From NCBI GenBank assembly GCA_040752355.1, contig JBFMHE010000001.1, positions 310,001-374,000 of the forward strand: 64,000 nucleotides of DNA, read 5' to 3'. The position numbers and the translations under genes are program-made. The notes under the pieces are model-generated. The model did no database searches. It had not been told where the DNA came from and saw only the letters and a list, made by a program, of their open reading frames with translations. The stretch comes from Nitrospirota bacterium (GTDB taxonomy: Bacteria > Nitrospirota > Thermodesulfovibrionia > Thermodesulfovibrionales > Dissulfurispiraceae). Shown here piece after piece: positions 7,503-47,921 of this stretch. How positions within the stretch are numbered: position 1 is the stretch's first letter; every line of letters begins with the position of its first letter.

Positions 7503-7515
7503 GGAGTCACACGTA

Positions 7516-7687
7516 CAGCGGGGCGATCTGCAATGAAAAGTTGTTCCCAGCGATACCTTGAAGTATTAGCTAACCACGACTATAGCCTTACTGGAAAACC
7601 AGGTATATTCTTTAGCGATGAACTTGCAAAGCCCGTGATGGGATTCATCGCTTTGGAACGGCTTTTCATTGCAGATCGCCCTGCTGT
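7516..7687. repeat. 172-bp inverted-repeat element with internal hairpins
   Basis: The arms at 7516-7541 and 7662-7687 are reverse complements over 26 bases with one mismatch. Pairing continues inward with GTTCC/GGAAC. Inside are further complementary pairs: ATACCT/AGGTAT, and AGCGATGAA/TTCATCGCT (7613-7651). An open frame crosses it, but its peptide has no recognisable features and depends on the repeat. The layout resembles a MITE or a structured RNA. It sits between nadA and the methyltransferase gene. Confidence 0.6.
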
Positions 7688-13054: not shown

Positions 13055-13100
13055 GACGATAAGGATAAGACGATAAGTAAGGACGATAAGGGACGATAAG
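13055..13100 (+). repeat. Short direct repeats GACGATAAG upstream of the transposase element
   Basis: GACGATAAG occurs at 13055, 13069, 13082 and 13092, and again at 13248 in front of the second copy of the element end. The remaining sequence from 12923 to 13054 is A+T-rich with no recognisable gene. Confidence 0.7.
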
Positions 13101-13241
13101 GGTCAGACTTAATACTTGATTAAAGCGTTCGGTTTTGTTACTGTTCTGCATGGCGAGAAAGACGCGTATTGAGTTCGAGGGAGCCCTCTATCACGTCATT
13201 ACACGGGGCAATCAGAAACAGAAGGTCTTCAGAACTAAAGG
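13092..13241 (+). repeat. 156-bp-period duplication of the transposase 5' end, first copy
   Basis: The segment from about 13092 to 13241 recurs from about 13248 with only a few differences. The repeat unit contains the element end GGGTCAGACTTAATACTTGA, a short leader and the first 31 transposase codons. The copies part company after AGAACTAAAG. It looks like a recent tandem duplication or an abortive second insertion. Confidence 0.8.
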
Positions 13242-13275
13242 TCATAAGACGATAAGGGTCAGACTTAATACTTGA
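13150..13275 (+). pseudogene. Truncated 5' fragment of the Y1 transposase
   Basis: From ATG 13150 the frame gives MARKTRIEFEGALYHVITRG and then matches the full transposase up to FRTK. It then runs into the second copy of the element end and stops at 13273-13275 after 41 residues. It lacks the HUH histidines and the catalytic tyrosine, so it cannot be a working transposase. Confidence 0.8.
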
Positions 13276-13305
13276 CTAAAGCGTTCGGTTTTGTTACTGT
13301 TCTGC

Positions 13306-14235
13306 ATGGCGAGAAAGGCGCGTATTGAGTTCGAAGGAGCCCTCTATCACGTCATTACACGGGGCAATCAGAAACAGAAGGTCTTCAGAACTAAAGAGGA
13401 CTTCCAGACCTATCTCGATATACTGCTCCGTTATAAAGATCGACATCGCTTCTCTCTCTATGCCTACGTCCTGATGAACAATCATATTCACCTGCTCATA
13501 GAGACCGCCTCTGTCTCTCTTTCCAAAACCCTCCAGGGCGTCAATCAAACCTATACCATGTACTTCAACCGGAAGTACCGTACCGTTGGGCATCTCTTTC
13601 AGGGGCGCTATAAGGCGATTCTGTGCGAAAAGGATACGTACCTGCTGGCCCTGGTTAAATATATCCACCTGAATCCCGTACGGGCCACCCTGACGCAGAG
13701 TCCTGATAGCTACCCGTGGAGTAGCCATGGAGTGTATATGCGCCCAACTGCAAAAGAGGCTCTAGTGGACACGAGACTTGTCCTGCCGCTGTTCAGCAAA
13801 AGGGAAGAGAGTGCACGGAAACTGTACCGTTCCTTTATGGGGGAGGAGATCAGCATTACGAGGGAAGACGTGTATCGGACAATTGACCAGCGGTTAATAG
13901 GTAGCAGCCGTTTTGTCGAGGAGATTATCGAAAAGCAGAAGGTCCCTCTTGAACGAAAGAGAAGAAAGCATGGGCTTTCTCTTTCGGAAATCGCTCGGGG
14001 CATCGAGAGAGCACATGGTGTCACGCTGAAAGATCTTCGTTCAAAGAGCAGGGTGAAAGAGATTGCTTGGTGCAGGAAGCTGTTGAGCATTGCGGCACTG
14101 GAGTATGGATACAGGGGAAAGGAGGTGGCGGCATTTGTCCACAAAGACCCGGCGATGATCTCACGGCATGTGAGCGAGAGGGCAGAATTGGCGGAGAAGC
14201 TGGAAGTCTTTCTGTTGTCGATAGAAGAGGAGTGA
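13306..14235 (+). CDS. Y1 (HUH) transposase, REP-associated/IS200-like, with DnaA-C-like tail
   Basis: 309 residues. The N-terminal Y1_Tnp domain has GALYHVITRGNQ, the HUH motif NNHIHLLIE (His 60 and 62), HLFQGRYKA, and the likely catalytic tyrosine near 119 in KYIHLNPVRA. From about residue 200 a helical domain resembles the C-terminal DNA-binding part of DnaA (LSEIARGIERAHGV...SISRHV-like). Such proteins cleave single-stranded DNA at hairpin-bearing ends and are often associated with REP sequences. ATG 13306 matches the start of the truncated upstream copy. The gene is intact. Confidence 0.88.
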   Translation: MARKARIEFEGALYHVITRGNQKQKVFRTKEDFQTYLDILLRYKDRHRFSLYAYVLMNNHIHLLIETASVSLSKTLQGVNQTYTMYFNRKYRTVGHLFQGRYKAILCEKDTYLLALVKYIHLNPVRATLTQSPDSYPWSSHGVYMRPTAKEALVDTRLVLPLFSKREESARKLYRSFMGEEISITREDVYRTIDQRLIGSSRFVEEIIEKQKVPLERKRRKHGLSLSEIARGIERAHGVTLKDLRSKSRVKEIAWCRKLLSIAALEYGYRGKEVAAFVHKDPAMISRHVSERAELAEKLEVFLLSIEEE

Positions 14236-14260
14236 AGAGCGGTAGTAATTCAAGTATTAA

Positions 14261-14343
14261 GTCTGACCCCCTTGATCCCTTGAGTCTGACCCCCTTGACT
14301 TGATTAGTCTGACCCCCTTGACTTGATTCATAACCCCCTTGAT
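14261..14343 (+). repeat. Tandem copies of GTCTGACCCCCTTGA at the right end
   Basis: The unit occurs at 14261 (slightly altered after it), 14284-14298 and 14307-14321, with a degenerate fourth copy near 14330. The spacing of the last two full copies is 23 bases. They lie between the transposase stop and the convergent glyS stop. Confidence 0.75.
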
Positions 14344-26349: not shown

Positions 26350-27267
26350 ATGTCCAATCACCTGGTAGGCATAAAAGAGCTCTCGAAGGAGCGCATCTCC
26401 CGGATACTCGATACCGCCTCCTCTTTCAAGGATGTGCTCAAGAGGGATATCAAGAAGGTGCCCGCGCTGAGGGGGAAGACGGTGGTGAACCTCTTCTTCG
26501 AGCCCTCGACACGGACGAAGACCTCGTTCGAACTGGCGGAGAAGCGCCTGAGCACCGATGTGCTCAACTTCTCGGTGCCGACCAGCAGCGTGGTCAAGGG
26601 GGAGAGCCTTTTCGACACCATCAAGACGATCGAAGCCTACGGCGTCGATTTCATCGTCATCCGCCACGGCTCGAGCGGGGTGCCCCATTTCATAGCGCAG
26701 CACATGGCTGCTTCGGTGATCAACGCGGGCGACGGTACGAACGAGCATCCCACCCAGGCGCTGCTCGACGCCTTCAGCATCATCGAAAAGAAAGGGTCGC
26801 TGGAAGGGCTCACGATAGCCATTGTCGGCGATATCGTCCACAGCCGCGTCGCCAAGTCGAACATCTACCTGCTTTCGAAGTTCGGCACCCGGGTGCGGCT
26901 CATCGGGCCGCCTGCCTTGATTCCCGATATGCGGGAGTATGGCGTCGAGGTCTTCTACGATATCGACGAGGGATTGCGAGGGGTGGATGTTGTCATGATG
27001 CTCAGGATACAGATGGAGCGGATGAGCAGGGGCTTCTTCCCCTCGACCCGCGAGTACTTCAAGTACTGGGGATTGAGCAGGGAGCGTCTCGCGCTTGCGA
27101 ACAGCGACGCCATTGTCATGCACCCGGGGCCGATGAACCGCGGTATCGAGATCGCCTCTGAGGTTGCGGACAGCCCGCAGTCGGTGATCCTCGATCAGGT
27201 GACGAACGGCATCGCCGTGCGCATGGCGGCGATGTATATCCTGGCAGGGAGCGAGGGATATGAGTAA
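26350..27267 (+). CDS. pyrB: Aspartate carbamoyltransferase catalytic subunit
   Basis: 305 residues. The carbamoyl-phosphate motif [29 protein letters not shown], and [11 protein letters not shown] are all present. It commits carbamoyl phosphate to pyrimidine synthesis. No pyrI regulatory subunit is seen in the window, which fits regulation by PyrR at the RNA level. It overlaps pyrC by 8 bases. Confidence 0.97.
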
Positions 27268-28573
27268 GGAGCTGCTGATAAGGAACGGACGCATCATCGA
27301 TCCTGCACAGGAGATCGACGGTATAGGAGACCTCCTGTGCGAGGGTGGCCGCATAAAGGAGCTGCGGATGCACGCGCCCGGGCAGAAGGCGAAGACCGCG
27401 AAGCCGCCCCGCGAGAACGGCGACCTCCAGGTGATCGATGCCGAAGGCAGGCTGGTGCTCGCCGGGCTCATCGACATGCACACGCACCTGAGGGAGCCGG
27501 GCTATGAGCACAAGGAGACGATACGCACCGGTACGCTCGCTGCGGTGAGGGGAGGCTTCACCGCGGTCTGCCCGATGCCCAATACCAGCCCGGTGAACGA
27601 CAATCCTACGGTTACGGCCTTCATTATCAAGAAAGCGCTCGAGCAGGGCTCCTGCGCGGTCTATCCGATCGGGGCCATCACCAAGGGACAGAACGGCGAA
27701 GAGCTGGCCGAGATGGGCCTCATGTATGACGCGGGATGTATCGCCTTTTCTGACGACGGCCGGCCGGTCATGAGCAGTATCATCATGCGGCGGGCGCTCG
27801 AGTATTCGAAGGTCTTCGACGTGCCGATCATCTCTCACTGCGAGGACATGACCCTCACCGACGGAGGGGTCATGAACGAGGGAAAGCTCTCGGCATCGCT
27901 CGGACTGAGGGGGCTGCCCGCGGCAGCGGAAGAGGTGATGGTGGCGCGCGATATCCTTCTCTCCGAGCTCACCAGGGGACGGCTGCATATTGCCCATGTC
28001 TCGACCGAGGGATCGGTCCGGCTGATCCGTCAGGCAAAGGAGCGGGGCGTGCCGCTCACGGCAGAGACCTGCCCGCACTACTTCTCGGTCACCGAGGATG
28101 CGGTCGGGGGGTACGACACCAATGCGAAGGTAAACCCGCCGCTGCGTACGGAGCGGGATGTGGCGGCGATCAGGGAGGGCCTGCGCGACGGCACGATCGA
28201 CGTCATCGCCACCGACCATGCGCCGCACCACCGGGACGAAAAGAACCTCGAGTTCGACAAGGCGCCGTCCGGTATTTCCGGGCTCGAGACGGCCCTCGGG
28301 CTGAGCATGCGGCTTGTCCACGACGGTCTGCTGTCGCTCCCCGGTCTCGTCGAAAAGCTTGCGTACCGCCCGGCGAGGATACTCGGCATTGACAAGGGAA
28401 CCCTGAAGCCCGGCATCGATGCCGATATCGTCATCGTCGATGCGGAACGGGAGGTGACCGTAGCGCCCGGGGAGTTCGCCTCGAGGGGCAAGAACACCCC
28501 CTTCGGGGGATGGACCCTCAGGGGATGCGCGGTAGTGACCATCTATAAAGGGAAGATCGCGACCGTTGTGTAA
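27260..28573 (+). CDS. pyrC: Dihydroorotase (type I)
   Basis: 437 residues, the long class I form. It has [23 protein letters not shown] with metal-binding His-x-His, [22 protein letters not shown]-type active-site sequence, and the C-terminal amidohydrolase strands. It cyclises carbamoyl-aspartate to dihydroorotate. The 8-base overlap with pyrB indicates coupling. Its TAA stop is the first base pair of the structured repeat element that follows. Confidence 0.96.
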
Positions 28574-28774
28574 GGGACTTGGAGCATCTAACATGATGAG
28601 TAGAAAGAGCCGGACGAGGCAGAGTGCATTCGTCTCATTCTCGACGGGCATCCGGCCCGTCTCCGAGGCTAGGACAGCTCGGAATCGAGTCGTACCGACC
28701 CGCTTCGCCGTCCTGGCTCCGCCTGGGCTGTCCAAGCCGCTCATGTACTCTACCTCATCCGACTCCAAGCCCTT
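28572..28774 (+). repeat. Structured dispersed element, copy A (between pyrC and carA)
   Basis: An outer stem AAGGG(A)CTTGGAG/CTCCAAGCCCTT and a second stem GGACGAGGCAGAGTGCAT (28612-28629) with its near-complement at 28743-28760 enclose a core at 28634-28706. The core is almost identical to the reverse complement of the 46613-46792 copy, including AGCTCGGAATCGAGTCGTAC. Inside are hairpins GACGGGC/GCCCGTC and GTCG/CGAC, and the pair GGACAGC/GCTGTCC. No convincing gene lies in the 237-base gap. It is in the same sense as the pyr operon. Confidence 0.7.
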
Positions 28775-28810
28775 TCATTTTGTTAAGAGCTCTCAATATC
28801 GGGAGGATGA

Positions 28811-30534: not shown

Positions 30535-33500
30535 ATGCCGAAGAGAACTGACATCAAGAAGATACTGCTGATCGGATCGGGCCCTATCGTCATAGGACAG
30601 GCGTGCGAGTTCGACTATTCCGGCACGCAGGCCTGCAAGGCCCTGAGGGAGGAGGGGTACACCGTCGTCCTGGTCAACTCCAACCCCGCTACCATCATGA
30701 CCGACCCCGAAACAGCCGATGCCGTCTATATCGAGCCGTTGTCGGCCGAGATCGTCGAGCTCATCATCAAGAAAGAGAGGCCGGACGCCCTCCTGCCGAC
30801 CATGGGAGGACAGACCGCGCTCAACCTCGCCGTAGAACTTTCGGAAGCGGGAATACTCGACCGGTACGGCGTCGAGCTGATCGGCGCAAAGCTCCCGGCC
30901 ATCAAGAAGGCCGAAGACAGGGAGCTCTTCAAAGAGGCGATGCGCCGCATCGGGCTCGAGGTGCCCCGCAGCGCAGCCATCACCAGTCTGAAAGACGGTC
31001 TCGATATCATCGAGCACCTCGGGTTTCCCGCCATCCTGAGGCCTGCCTTCACCCTCGGCGGCACGGGCGGGGGCATCGCCTATAACATCGAGGAATACCG
31101 TGAGCTGCTTGAGAAGGGGCTGAAGCTGAGCCCGGTGCAGCAGGTGCTCGTCGAGGAGTCGGCGCTCGGCTGGAAAGAGTACGAGCTCGAGGTGATGCGC
31201 GACTGCAAGGACAACGTGGTCATCATCTGCTCCATAGAGAATTTCGATCCCATGGGCGTCCACACCGGAGACTCGATCACCGTGGCCCCGGCGCAGACCC
31301 TCTGCGATAAAGAGTACCAGAGGATGAGAGACGCCGCGATCGCCGTCATCAGAGAGATCGGCGTCGATACAGGAGGGTCCAATATACAATTCGCCATCAA
31401 CCCCCAGAACGGGAAGATGATCGTTATCGAGATGAACCCCCGGGTCTCGCGCAGCTCTGCCCTCGCGAGCAAGGCGACCGGCTTCCCTATCGCCAAGATA
31501 GCGGCAAAGCTCGCCGTAGGCTACTCGCTCGACGAGATCAGGAACGATATCACCCGGGAGACCCCCGCTTCGTTCGAGCCGACTATCGACTATGTGGTGA
31601 CGAAGATCCCGCGCTTCACCTTCGAGAAGTTCGCCGAGGCGGACCCGACGCTTACGACGCAGATGAAATCGGTCGGCGAAGTGATGTCCATAGGCAGGAC
31701 CTTCAAGGAGTCGCTGCAGAAGGCGTTGAGGAGCCTCGAGATCGGCTCTGCAGGGCTCGAGCCGGTCGATATCGCGGAAGAGGAGCTGCGGTCGAAGCTC
31801 AAGACCCCCAATGCCGAGCGGTTGTGGTGTGTGGCGCAGGCGATGAGGCTCGGCATGAGCAGTGATGAGATAGTTTCCCTCACCGCCATCGATCCGTGGT
31901 TTCTCAAGAACATGGAGCAGCTTGTCGGGATGGAGGAGATACTGAAGGATCAAGGGGCAAGGGTCATGGGTCATGGGTCCGAAAACCGCGCCCCTTGCCC
32001 TTTGCCCCTTGCCCCTGAGGTGTTGAGGCGGGCAAAGGAGTGGGGCTTCTCCGACAGGCGGATCGCCGCGCTGACCGGGGTGACCGAAAAAGATGTCCGT
32101 GATGCGCGGAGAGGGCTCGGCATCGTCCCGGTCTATAAGCTGGTCGATACCTGCGCCGCGGAATTCGAAGCGTATACGCCGTACCTCTATTCGACGTATG
32201 AAAGACCTTTTTATAGGGTCATGGGTCATGGGTCACGGGTCACGGGTCAGGAAAAGGATATTCTTGCCCCTTGCCCCTTGCCCCTTGTCCCTGCTGCCGA
32301 GTGCGAAGCGAATCCGACGGACCGGAAGAAGGTGATTATCCTGGGCTCCGGCCCGAACAGAATAGGGCAGGGTATAGAATTCGATTACTGCTGCGTCCAT
32401 GCGGTGTTTGCGTTGAGAGAGATGGGGTACGAGACGATCATGGTAAACTGCAATCCCGAGACGGTGAGCACCGATTACGATACCGCCGACCGGCTCTATT
32501 TCGAGCCGCTCACGATCGAAGACGTTCTCAGCATCGTCGAGCGGGAGAGGCCCGAAGGAGTGATCGTGCAGTTCGGGGGGCAGACGCCGCTCAAGCTCGC
32601 CGTTCCCCTCGAAAAGGAGGGAGTGCGGATCCTCGGCACCTCGCCCGACTCGATCGACAGGGCCGAAGACCGGAAGCGGTTCAAAGAGCTGCTGCACAAA
32701 CTGAACCTCAGGCAGGCCGAGAGCGATACCGCGATGTCCTGCGAGGAGGCGGTCGGCGTGGCGAGCAAGATATCCTACCCGGTGATGGTGCGGCCTTCCT
32801 ACGTGCTCGGCGGAAGGGCGATGGAGATCGTCTATGACGAGAACTCGCTGACCGATTACATGAAGCGGGCGGTCAAGGCGTCGCCCGAGCACCCGATCCT
32901 TATCGACAAGTATCTCGAGGACGCGATCGAGGTCGATGTCGACGCGCTCTCGGACGGCGTGGACGTTATCATCGGCGGCGTGATGGAGCATATAGAAGAG
33001 GCGGGGGTCCACTCGGGGGATTCGGCATGCTCCATTCCCCCGTACTCGCTGCCGTCCGGCATCGTCGATGAGATCAAGCGGCAGGCAAAGGCGTTGGCAA
33101 AGGAGCTCAAGGTCATCGGTCTGATGAACCTCCAGTTCGCGGTAAAGGACAATGAGATATTCATTCTCGAGGTCAATCCCCGGGCATCGCGCACCATTCC
33201 CTACGTCAGCAAGGCGACCGGGGTTCCGCTCGCCAAGATGGCGGCAAAGGTGATGATGGGCGCCACCCTCAAGGAGCTCGGGCTGACCGGGGAGCGGGAG
33301 ATCCGGCATGTGGCGGTCAAAGAGGCGGTCTTCCCCTTCGATAAGTTCCCCGGCGTCGATACCATACTGGGGCCGGAGATGAAGTCTACGGGAGAGGTGA
33401 TGGGGATCGATACCGATTTCGGTCTCGCCTATGCAAAGGCGCAGGCCGCGAGCAGCAATAAGATCCCGACCTCGGGGAAGATCATCATCAGCGTCAAGGA

Positions 33501-46612: not shown

Positions 46613-46792
46613 ATGAATAGGGAGGGGGAGCGAGGCGAGGCATTTGGAGCGGCATGGGCAGCCCTGGCGAAATCCAGGGATGGTGAAGCGGGTCGGTACG
46701 ACTCGATTCCGAGCTGCCCCGCCTCGGAGACGGGCCGGATGCCCGTCGAGAATGAGCGCAAATGCCTCGCCTCGCTCCCCCTCCCTATTCAT
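46613..46792 (-). repeat. Structured dispersed element, copy B (between the DUF3108 gene and uvrA)
   Basis: Perfect 34-base inverted ends (46613-46646 and 46759-46792) close the element. On the minus strand the core contains hairpins GACGGGC/GCCCGTC, CTCG/CGAG, GTCG/CGAC and CCCTGG/CCAGGG, plus the pair GGGCAGC/GCTGCCC. The core matches copy A at 28572-28774. The right arm includes the last codons and stop of the DUF3108 gene. Open frames across it are artefacts of the repeat. Confidence 0.75.
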
Positions 46793-47921
46793 TAGCATGC
46801 CCTGCATCCAGGGACTTGAGCTTTGCGGTGACGGTGCCGATGGGAACTTTGGTCTCGACCCTCACCGGGATCTTCCGTTCATCATTGGTGAGCCAGATGA
46901 AGATATCCCCGCTCTTCTTGAAGAGCCCATCGGTCGTGAGGACCGGCTGCACCTTGATGGTCTCCACATCGCCGCCTCCCGGCAGCTCCGCCTGCTCTTT
47001 GGCGAGGACCTTCACCTCGACCTTGATGAACTTGTTGCTGTCGAAGACATCGATATAGACCGGCTTGCCGATCTCGAGGGTCTGTGTCCTCAGGTAGTAG
47101 AAGCCGGAAATGACATCCCATATCGGCGGCTCCGCAACCGTGTGCTCGTCTCTGGTCCCCTTGAGATGGTTGAGGAAGGTGATCTTCTTCGACGCGAAAT
47201 CGAAGAGCGTCTCTTTGTCGCTGCGGTACTTGCCTTCGCGCTGTTTTATCTTGAAATGCGCCGGAACGCCCCCGACGATCCTGCTCTCCGAAAAATCCTC
47301 CACCTTGTAGAACGCCGAGATGACGGGAGCGGAGCGCACCCTCGAGGTGATGGTGACCTCGTCCTCGCTGCTGACCGCATCGAGAACAGCGCTGCCCACG
47401 TAGATCCCTGCCCAGTAGATATCGAAGGCGAGTCGCTCCTGGAATGCTGTTTTTAAAAGAGGAGCAAGCGCTTCGACTTTCTGCTGCTCTGCAGCAGCCG
47501 GTTCAGCGGTATTCCCGGCGCTTTGTGGAAGAGCTTCGGCATCCTTCGGCTCCGTGCGGCTTATGTGCTCTCCGGGAGGCTGGTCACCAACGCTGCTCTC
47601 TTCTCCGCTAAGGCGTGTTTCTTCCTTCTTAACAGGAGGGCCGGCATTCTTTTCCTCTGAGGATGATTCACCGGATGTGCTCATCAGGGGCATGGGTACC
47701 GGAGCTGATAAAGAGGGTTCCTTGCCACCTTTATCGGTAACGGGCCGGTCTTCTGCTACCAATCGCGCTAAGAGTAGTGTTGTAGAAAGGGGGGCAGGAA
47801 GCATGAATCCCCCGCGCGACGTGACGCCTGCGATAACGAAGAGATGCAGTGCCACGGAGAGGACAAGAGGAACGAGAAGGGGAATAACGATTTTTTGGGA
47901 CACTCTCATAGAGAAAACCAT
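46785..47921 (-). CDS. DUF3108 domain-containing protein
   Basis: 378 residues. An N-terminal transmembrane helix (VIPLLVPLVLSVALHLFVIAGV) is followed by a long low-complexity Pro/Ser/Glu linker to about residue 155 and a C-terminal DUF3108 domain (LAFDIYWAGIYVGSAVLDA, YKVEDFSESRIVGGVPAHFKIKQREGKYR, FDSNKFIKVEVKVL). The domain resembles periplasmic or envelope proteins with an LolA/LppX-like beta fold. The exact function is unknown. Its final three codons lie inside the arm of structured element B. Confidence 0.85.
   Translation of the reverse strand: MVFSMRVSQKIVIPLLVPLVLSVALHLFVIAGVTSRGGFMLPAPLSTTLLLARLVAEDRPVTDKGGKEPSLSAPVPMPLMSTSGESSSEEKNAGPPVKKEETRLSGEESSVGDQPPGEHISRTEPKDAEALPQSAGNTAEPAAAEQQKVEALAPLLKTAFQERLAFDIYWAGIYVGSAVLDAVSSEDEVTITSRVRSAPVISAFYKVEDFSESRIVGGVPAHFKIKQREGKYRSDKETLFDFASKKITFLNHLKGTRDEHTVAEPPIWDVISGFYYLRTQTLEIGKPVYIDVFDSNKFIKVEVKVLAKEQAELPGGGDVETIKVQPVLTTDGLFKKSGDIFIWLTNDERKIPVRVETKVPIGTVTAKLKSLDAGHANE

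Follow-up and report, generated by a model that had tools for sequence, protein, structure and literature searches.

REP/REPIN sequences, which are accompanied by RAYT transposases, are dispersed hairpins near gene ends, for which a polarity of the folded strand is expected. Repeats of the REPIN/RAYT or IS200/IS605 type typically form tight hairpins in spacers. The ERIC/IRU, Correia/NEMIS, and MITE-like repeats are 100-200 bp long, non-coding, dispersed in spacers, and bounded by inverted ends, and the transcripts of ERIC/IRU and Correia/NEMIS are expected to form long hairpins (PMC2229807). CsrA-sequestering small RNAs of the CsrB/RsmZ type expose GGA motifs (CAGGATG, ANGGAX) in the apical loops of stems that are variable in sequence; the high-affinity site of CsrA/RsmE is the hexaloop ANGGAX, along with related pentaloops (PMC4005645). 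Template switching between inverted repeats homogenizes the arms and inverts the spacers (PMC8604942), and it also creates or mends RNA hairpins (PMC8794818). Here we describe a palindromic repeat of Nitrospirota that resembles each of these systems in some respects.

The window, that is, the whole stretch of 64,000 nucleotides that was analyzed, contains two copies of this repeat, A and B (Table 1). The arms of copy B are exact reverse complements of 34 bp each, as claimed in the sequence-only reading, and are separated by a 112-nt spacer; the RNA fold has a free energy of -124.7 kcal/mol, compared with a mean of -75.1 for shuffled sequences (z -11.6). Copy B is matched at window positions 46629-46776 (E value 6.7e-27) by a covariance model that was derived from 31 copies of the family. 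The reading that the DUF3108 gene takes its stop codon from the right arm holds as well, with the overlap confined to the stop and the last 1-2 codons: besides the TAG (46787-46785), the arm takes in the terminal Glu codon and two bases of the Asn codon. The DUF3108 domain itself is complete (residues 166-369 of 378) and ends 9 residues short of the stop. Most simply, the stop codon was captured by an arm reaching into the neighboring gene, via either insertion beside the stop or arm extension.

Table 1. Positions, within the window, of the two repeat copies, the parts of copy B, and the adjoining genes
Feature	Positions	Strand	Basis
pyrC (dihydroorotase by its sequence), gene preceding copy A	27260..28573	+	
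Copy A, full hairpin, 211 bp; extra outer stem GAGC..TAACA/TGTTA..GCTC	28582..28792	-	
Copy B, entire hairpin, 180 bp	46613..46792	+	exact arms, fold, covariance-model match
Copy B, P1 left arm; locus-specific distal portion ATGAATAGGG	46613..46646	+	
Copy B, conserved junction strand GAGCGG	46647..46652	+	(nearly) invariant columns, alignment A1
Copy B, P2 arm (three-way junction), in a long version with the own-genome insert GTCGGTACGACTCGATTCCGA	46653..46721	+	
Copy B, P3: CCTCGGA, then hairpin GACGGGC-CGGAT-GCCCGTC, loop with GGA	46722..46747	+	
Copy B, conserved junction strand GAGAATGAG	46748..46756	+	invariant in 31/31 sequences
Copy B, P1 right arm; covers the TAG, the final codon, and part of the adjoining codon of the DUF3108 gene	46759..46792	+	
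DUF3108 gene; stop codon within the copy B arm	46785..47921	-	

Copy A carries GGA in the loops of both P2 and P3. It had been read as beginning at the pyrC TAA; the full hairpin actually starts 8 nt past this codon (28571-28573). Nor do the two copies lie in the sense of their upstream genes: with the strand that carries the core GAGCGG...GAGAATGAG taken as forward, both are antisense. The window contains other repeats as well. A 33-nt inverted pair (7515-7547 and 7655-7687, 91%) with a 107-nt spacer has an architecture like that of copy B, and the core of the copy B family was not matched there. The region 31946-32285 is occupied by AGGGGCAAGGGTCATGGGTC-type repeat runs, with two 71-nt copies that are 77% alike. 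A Y1_Tnp (RAYT-like) gene (13339-13668, + strand) adjoins two 149-bp tandem copies (13092-13396), which have an inverted partner at 14250-14281; these 149-bp repeats apparently are a different repeat system.

The repeat family is widespread across Nitrospirota. BLAST followed by the covariance model put the copy number in this genome, 3.57 Mb in size, at about 50; the copies are short, non-coding, and dispersed in intergenic spacers, as is typical of bacterial MITEs. Matches were obtained in 22 of the 31 genomes of the same GTDB family (f1), with up to 98 copies per genome, and, with 11 candidates scored per genome, in at least 57 of the 296 genomes of the phylum sample. In family f2, each of the 16 genomes carries the repeat, and in f11, 18 of the 20 do. 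No Rfam family was matched at the gathering score anywhere in the window, and copy B and its relatives produced only sub-threshold matches, such as c-di-GMP-I-GGC at 19.4 bits; with a gathering score of 59 bits, this identity was rejected. Neither the viral contigs of IMG/VR nor the plasmids of PLSDB contained a match to the element, and among the papers searched, we recognized none that describes such a Nitrospirae repeat or a dispersed repeat linked to CsrA.

In the alignment, the core consists of the outer stem P1, GAGCGG, the P2 arm, CCTCGGAG, the P3 hairpin, and GAGAATGAG, that is, a conserved three-way junction in which P1 is closed by the hairpins P2 and P3. Both sides change in 25 of the 36 pairs, a level reached in none of 500 shuffles, and 88.6% of the alignment cells are paired, to which neither shuffling nor sliding comes close. 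The outermost arm sequence varies from locus to locus while remaining palindromic (for example, GTAATCCC/GGGATTAC in L011, GCAGCC/GGCTGC in L012, and ATGAATAG in copy B). Thus, the conserved terminal inverted repeat of a MITE is lacking: the arms are always present, but each locus has its own distal sequence. The covariation of the arms could be mutational in origin, for example, produced by template switching, rather than selected. In several copies (L021, L024, L050, and L143), the tip of P2 or P3 is swapped for longer nested hairpins, such as CCCCAAAAAGACGTTGTCTTTTTGGGG.

The mismatches within the arms are distributed asymmetrically between the strands. On the forward strand, under symmetric scoring, there are 187 G-T mismatches vs 26 A-C, counts that are drawn from related copies; the ratio is 64:22 once identical within-genus events are collapsed to one. 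The excess appears both in copies antisense to co-directional genes (89:9) and in sense copies (35:3) and recurs in other families (56:8 and 16:6). Because this excess is independent of the direction of the host gene, it is the element's own forward strand that folds, and because neither a cruciform nor folding within the host mRNA would produce it, the folding molecule appears to be the single forward strand, as either RNA or ssDNA. No conserved promoter for the element was seen.

Among genomes of the same genus, the copy number drops from 27 to 1, and empty orthologous sites are present. From these observations we infer mobility, and the element very probably is a non-autonomous mobile palindromic repeat. 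Comparison by eye with relatives at 12 sites, several of which have flanks too diverged for the purpose, revealed no direct target duplication. At L095 and L092, one distal arm has its counterpart in the native sequence, and the other arm is an inverted copy thereof. Of the 29 filled orthologous pairs, 10 are inverted. In one of these (L098/L066), the two copies share the unique arm, with a similarity equaled by about 0.6% of random pairs, and differ in the orientation of the core, which is best explained by inversion of the core in place; the other nine, in which the distal arms lack a clear match, could be independent insertions. Between a flagellar-type gene and an endonuclease III-type gene (both named from sequence), the element is forward in G012 and G017 and reverse in G044 and G022, in conflict with the relationships among the genera. 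Template switching probably renews the arms of the repeat and inverts its core. The earlier suggestion that the perfect arms make copy B the younger of the two copies is thus unsafe because template switching can restore arm perfection. At L118 and L133 (relatives of genus g5), the orthologous spacers are filled by a different insertion, with the ends AAGTTGAGCGATTTTA...AGAATCGCTCAA, and the L096, L102, and L103 copies are nested in another composite repeat.

The stems of P2 and P3 vary freely, whereas their apical loops retain GGA (CAGGATG, CTGGATG, CATGGACG), and loops such as CATGGACG and CAGGATG agree with the ANGGAX hexaloop and the related pentaloops (PMC4005645). This genome encodes CsrA (G000:C1:253115-253270). 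By the loop finder, at least one GGA loop is present in 191 of the 224 copies from CsrA-bearing genomes vs 7 of the 41 copies from genomes lacking CsrA; the Fisher p value of 1e-17 overstates this association, given that the copies are not independent and the comparison comes down to a handful of lineage contrasts. The 7 exceptions comprise 4 of the 35 copies in family f2 and 3 of the 4 in the f1 genomes G009 and G010. GGA-looped copies occur in each of the CsrA-bearing families f1, f3, f4, f5, f7, f9, f12, f15, and f26, and most copies in CsrA-bearing genomes carry one or two GGA, as would suit a Csr/Rsm sponge; in the f11 genomes without CsrA, none of the 9 copies has a GGA loop. GGA-looped copies, otherwise absent from f11, were found in G313, G320, and G321 (L381-L383, L399, and L400). 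In f1, the element was present in each of the tested genomes that encode CsrA and missing from 6 of the 8 genomes without CsrA in the first sample; G009, by contrast, gave no CsrA match, although it has 28 copies whose GGA loops are mostly intact. Across the phylum, the presence of CsrA does not predict the element, and many CsrA-bearing families are without it. A strict requirement of CsrA for carrying the element was rejected: the CsrA-less families f2, f11, and f13 are rich in copies, so CsrA is dispensable for its persistence. The literature searched yielded nothing on CsrA control in Nitrospirota. We see roughly even chances that the forward-strand RNA is a CsrA binder, as predicted from the loops of P2 and P3.

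The placement of the repeat was assessed against uncurated gene calls predicted here with a codon model. Of the 57 copies from this genome included in the counts, 33 have co-directional genes on their two sides, 11 convergent ones, and 13 divergent ones. In the co-directional spacers, the hairpin is closer to the stop than to the next start in 24 of the 33 cases (sign test p 0.014), typically 13-38 nt past the stop; in families f2 and f11, this is so for 37 of 48 copies, at about 10 nt past the stop. With a few doubtful gene calls set aside, only 3 of the 57 hairpins overlap a stop, by 2-8 nt. The target preference for translation ends proposed from the two copies in the window therefore survives as a tendency to lie close to stops, but not as placement exactly on them. 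Orientation in co-directional spacers is biased, with 65 antisense and 25 sense copies in family f1 and 36 and 12, respectively, in f2 and f11 (an antisense share of about 73%), but is not fixed.

These patterns bear directly on the alternative, raised in the sequence-only reading, that the element is a cis-acting 3'-UTR structure. On this view, the hairpin in the upstream gene's mRNA would stabilize, process, or terminate the transcript, in the manner of REP or NEMIS elements. The stop-proximal placement and biased orientation fit this explanation, and a long stem on either strand would block 3' exonucleases. The polarity of the wobble pairs, however, tracks the strand of the element and not that of the mRNA, so that antisense copies keep the forward-strand fold; furthermore, copies in both orientations occur, including at orthologous sites, which itself disfavors a function in the host mRNA, and nearly a quarter of the copies in this genome are in divergent spacers. 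The 3'-UTR idea is thus only partly supported, and we consider such a role quite improbable. A template-switch origin could also be taken further, to an inert relic in which template switching alone keeps the palindromes perfect and the folded strand is not under selection. Arm ends that are locus-specific and still palindromic, as well as inverted orthologs, would be expected in this case, but the strand asymmetry of the mismatches, the invariant junction bases, and the conservation of the GGA loops amid changing stems make it very unlikely.

The other alternatives invoke a mobilizing enzyme. Under one of these, the element is a non-autonomous repeat transposed as ssDNA (REPIN/RAYT-like or derived from IS200/IS605), and a Y1 HUH transposase would recognize the folded ssDNA, the GGA loops being features read by this enzyme instead of CsrA sites. 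The excess of G-T over A-C suits ssDNA as well as RNA, tight hairpins in spacers fit such repeats, and Y1_Tnp genes were identified in 20 of the 31 genomes of family f1, with 6 in the present genome. Against this, no copy of the element was found in the 30 fetched Y1_Tnp loci with their flanks, so that Y1/RAYT was rejected as an adjacent mobilizer; G022 has 34 copies, yet no Y1 match; and the GGA loops largely track the presence of CsrA. Transposition of this kind appears unlikely. Copying back of a retroelement-type RNA (a retron or group II intron derivative) by a reverse transcriptase would account for the RNA-like structure and the strand polarity; however, RVT_1 had no match in the copy-rich genomes G000, G012, G022, G046, G009, and G017, which led us to reject reverse transcriptase as the mobilizer, and Rfam gave no match. 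Barring a reverse transcriptase that acts in trans or is missing from the assemblies, this possibility is already largely refuted, and it is extremely remote. No transposing enzyme for the element was found, neither of the two kinds of enzymes examined, Y1 and RT, fitting the data.

On balance, we lean toward an explanation that combines a mobile-like palindromic repeat, arms maintained by template switching, and a forward-strand RNA predicted to bind CsrA. The forward strand of copy B folds into a long P1 closed by the three-way junction with the hairpins P2 and P3. The element accumulates in intergenic spacers, chiefly soon after stops and chiefly in antisense orientation. Template switching during replication would keep the arms perfect, stretch them into the flanks, and sometimes flip the core in place; the stretching of the arms into flanking DNA would have led to the capture of the DUF3108-gene stop codon. 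Where CsrA is present, the forward-strand RNA would bind this protein through the GGA motifs in the loops of P2 and P3 and so serve as a small RNA for decoy or docking, whereas in lineages without CsrA, the element persists with altered loops.

If this explanation is correct, a dispersed repeat of Nitrospirota links mobile-like DNA with CsrA, a global regulator. More tentatively, and at somewhat less than even odds, a selfish or domesticated phylum-wide repeat may spread a paired CsrA-binding RNA module to tens of intergenic spacers, a module whose genome-wide copy number could tune free CsrA, whose loops would be lost along with CsrA, and whose orientation would be reset by inversion in place through its own arms. 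The repeat provides hundreds of natural replicates of palindrome evolution, including arm renewal, extension into genes, and core inversion, which would make template-switch mutation directly measurable. It also carries two warnings: perfect arms give no age for an element, and a stop codon within a hairpin can stem from arm extension instead of stop-codon targeting.

In comparison with the known systems, the Nitrospirota element shares with ERIC and NEMIS the expected long-hairpin transcript but has locus-specific arm ends in place of a fixed terminal sequence and a pair of GGA hairpins that branch from a conserved three-way junction; neither a direct target duplication nor TA ends were seen. 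Compared to REP/REPIN, the arms are far longer and the conserved junction core is larger, and there is no association with the resident Y1/RAYT genes. Whereas the CsrB/RsmZ RNAs contain many sites and are encoded by one or two regulated genes, the element has two predicted sites per copy and tens of dispersed copies; it is known here from sequence, without a known promoter or an Rfam match. Homogenized arms, extended palindromes, and inverted spacers are likewise the products of template-switch (quasipalindrome) mutation (PMC8604942, PMC8794818), which has been described for other loci and organisms and which we infer here for a conserved family with cores of about 90 nt.
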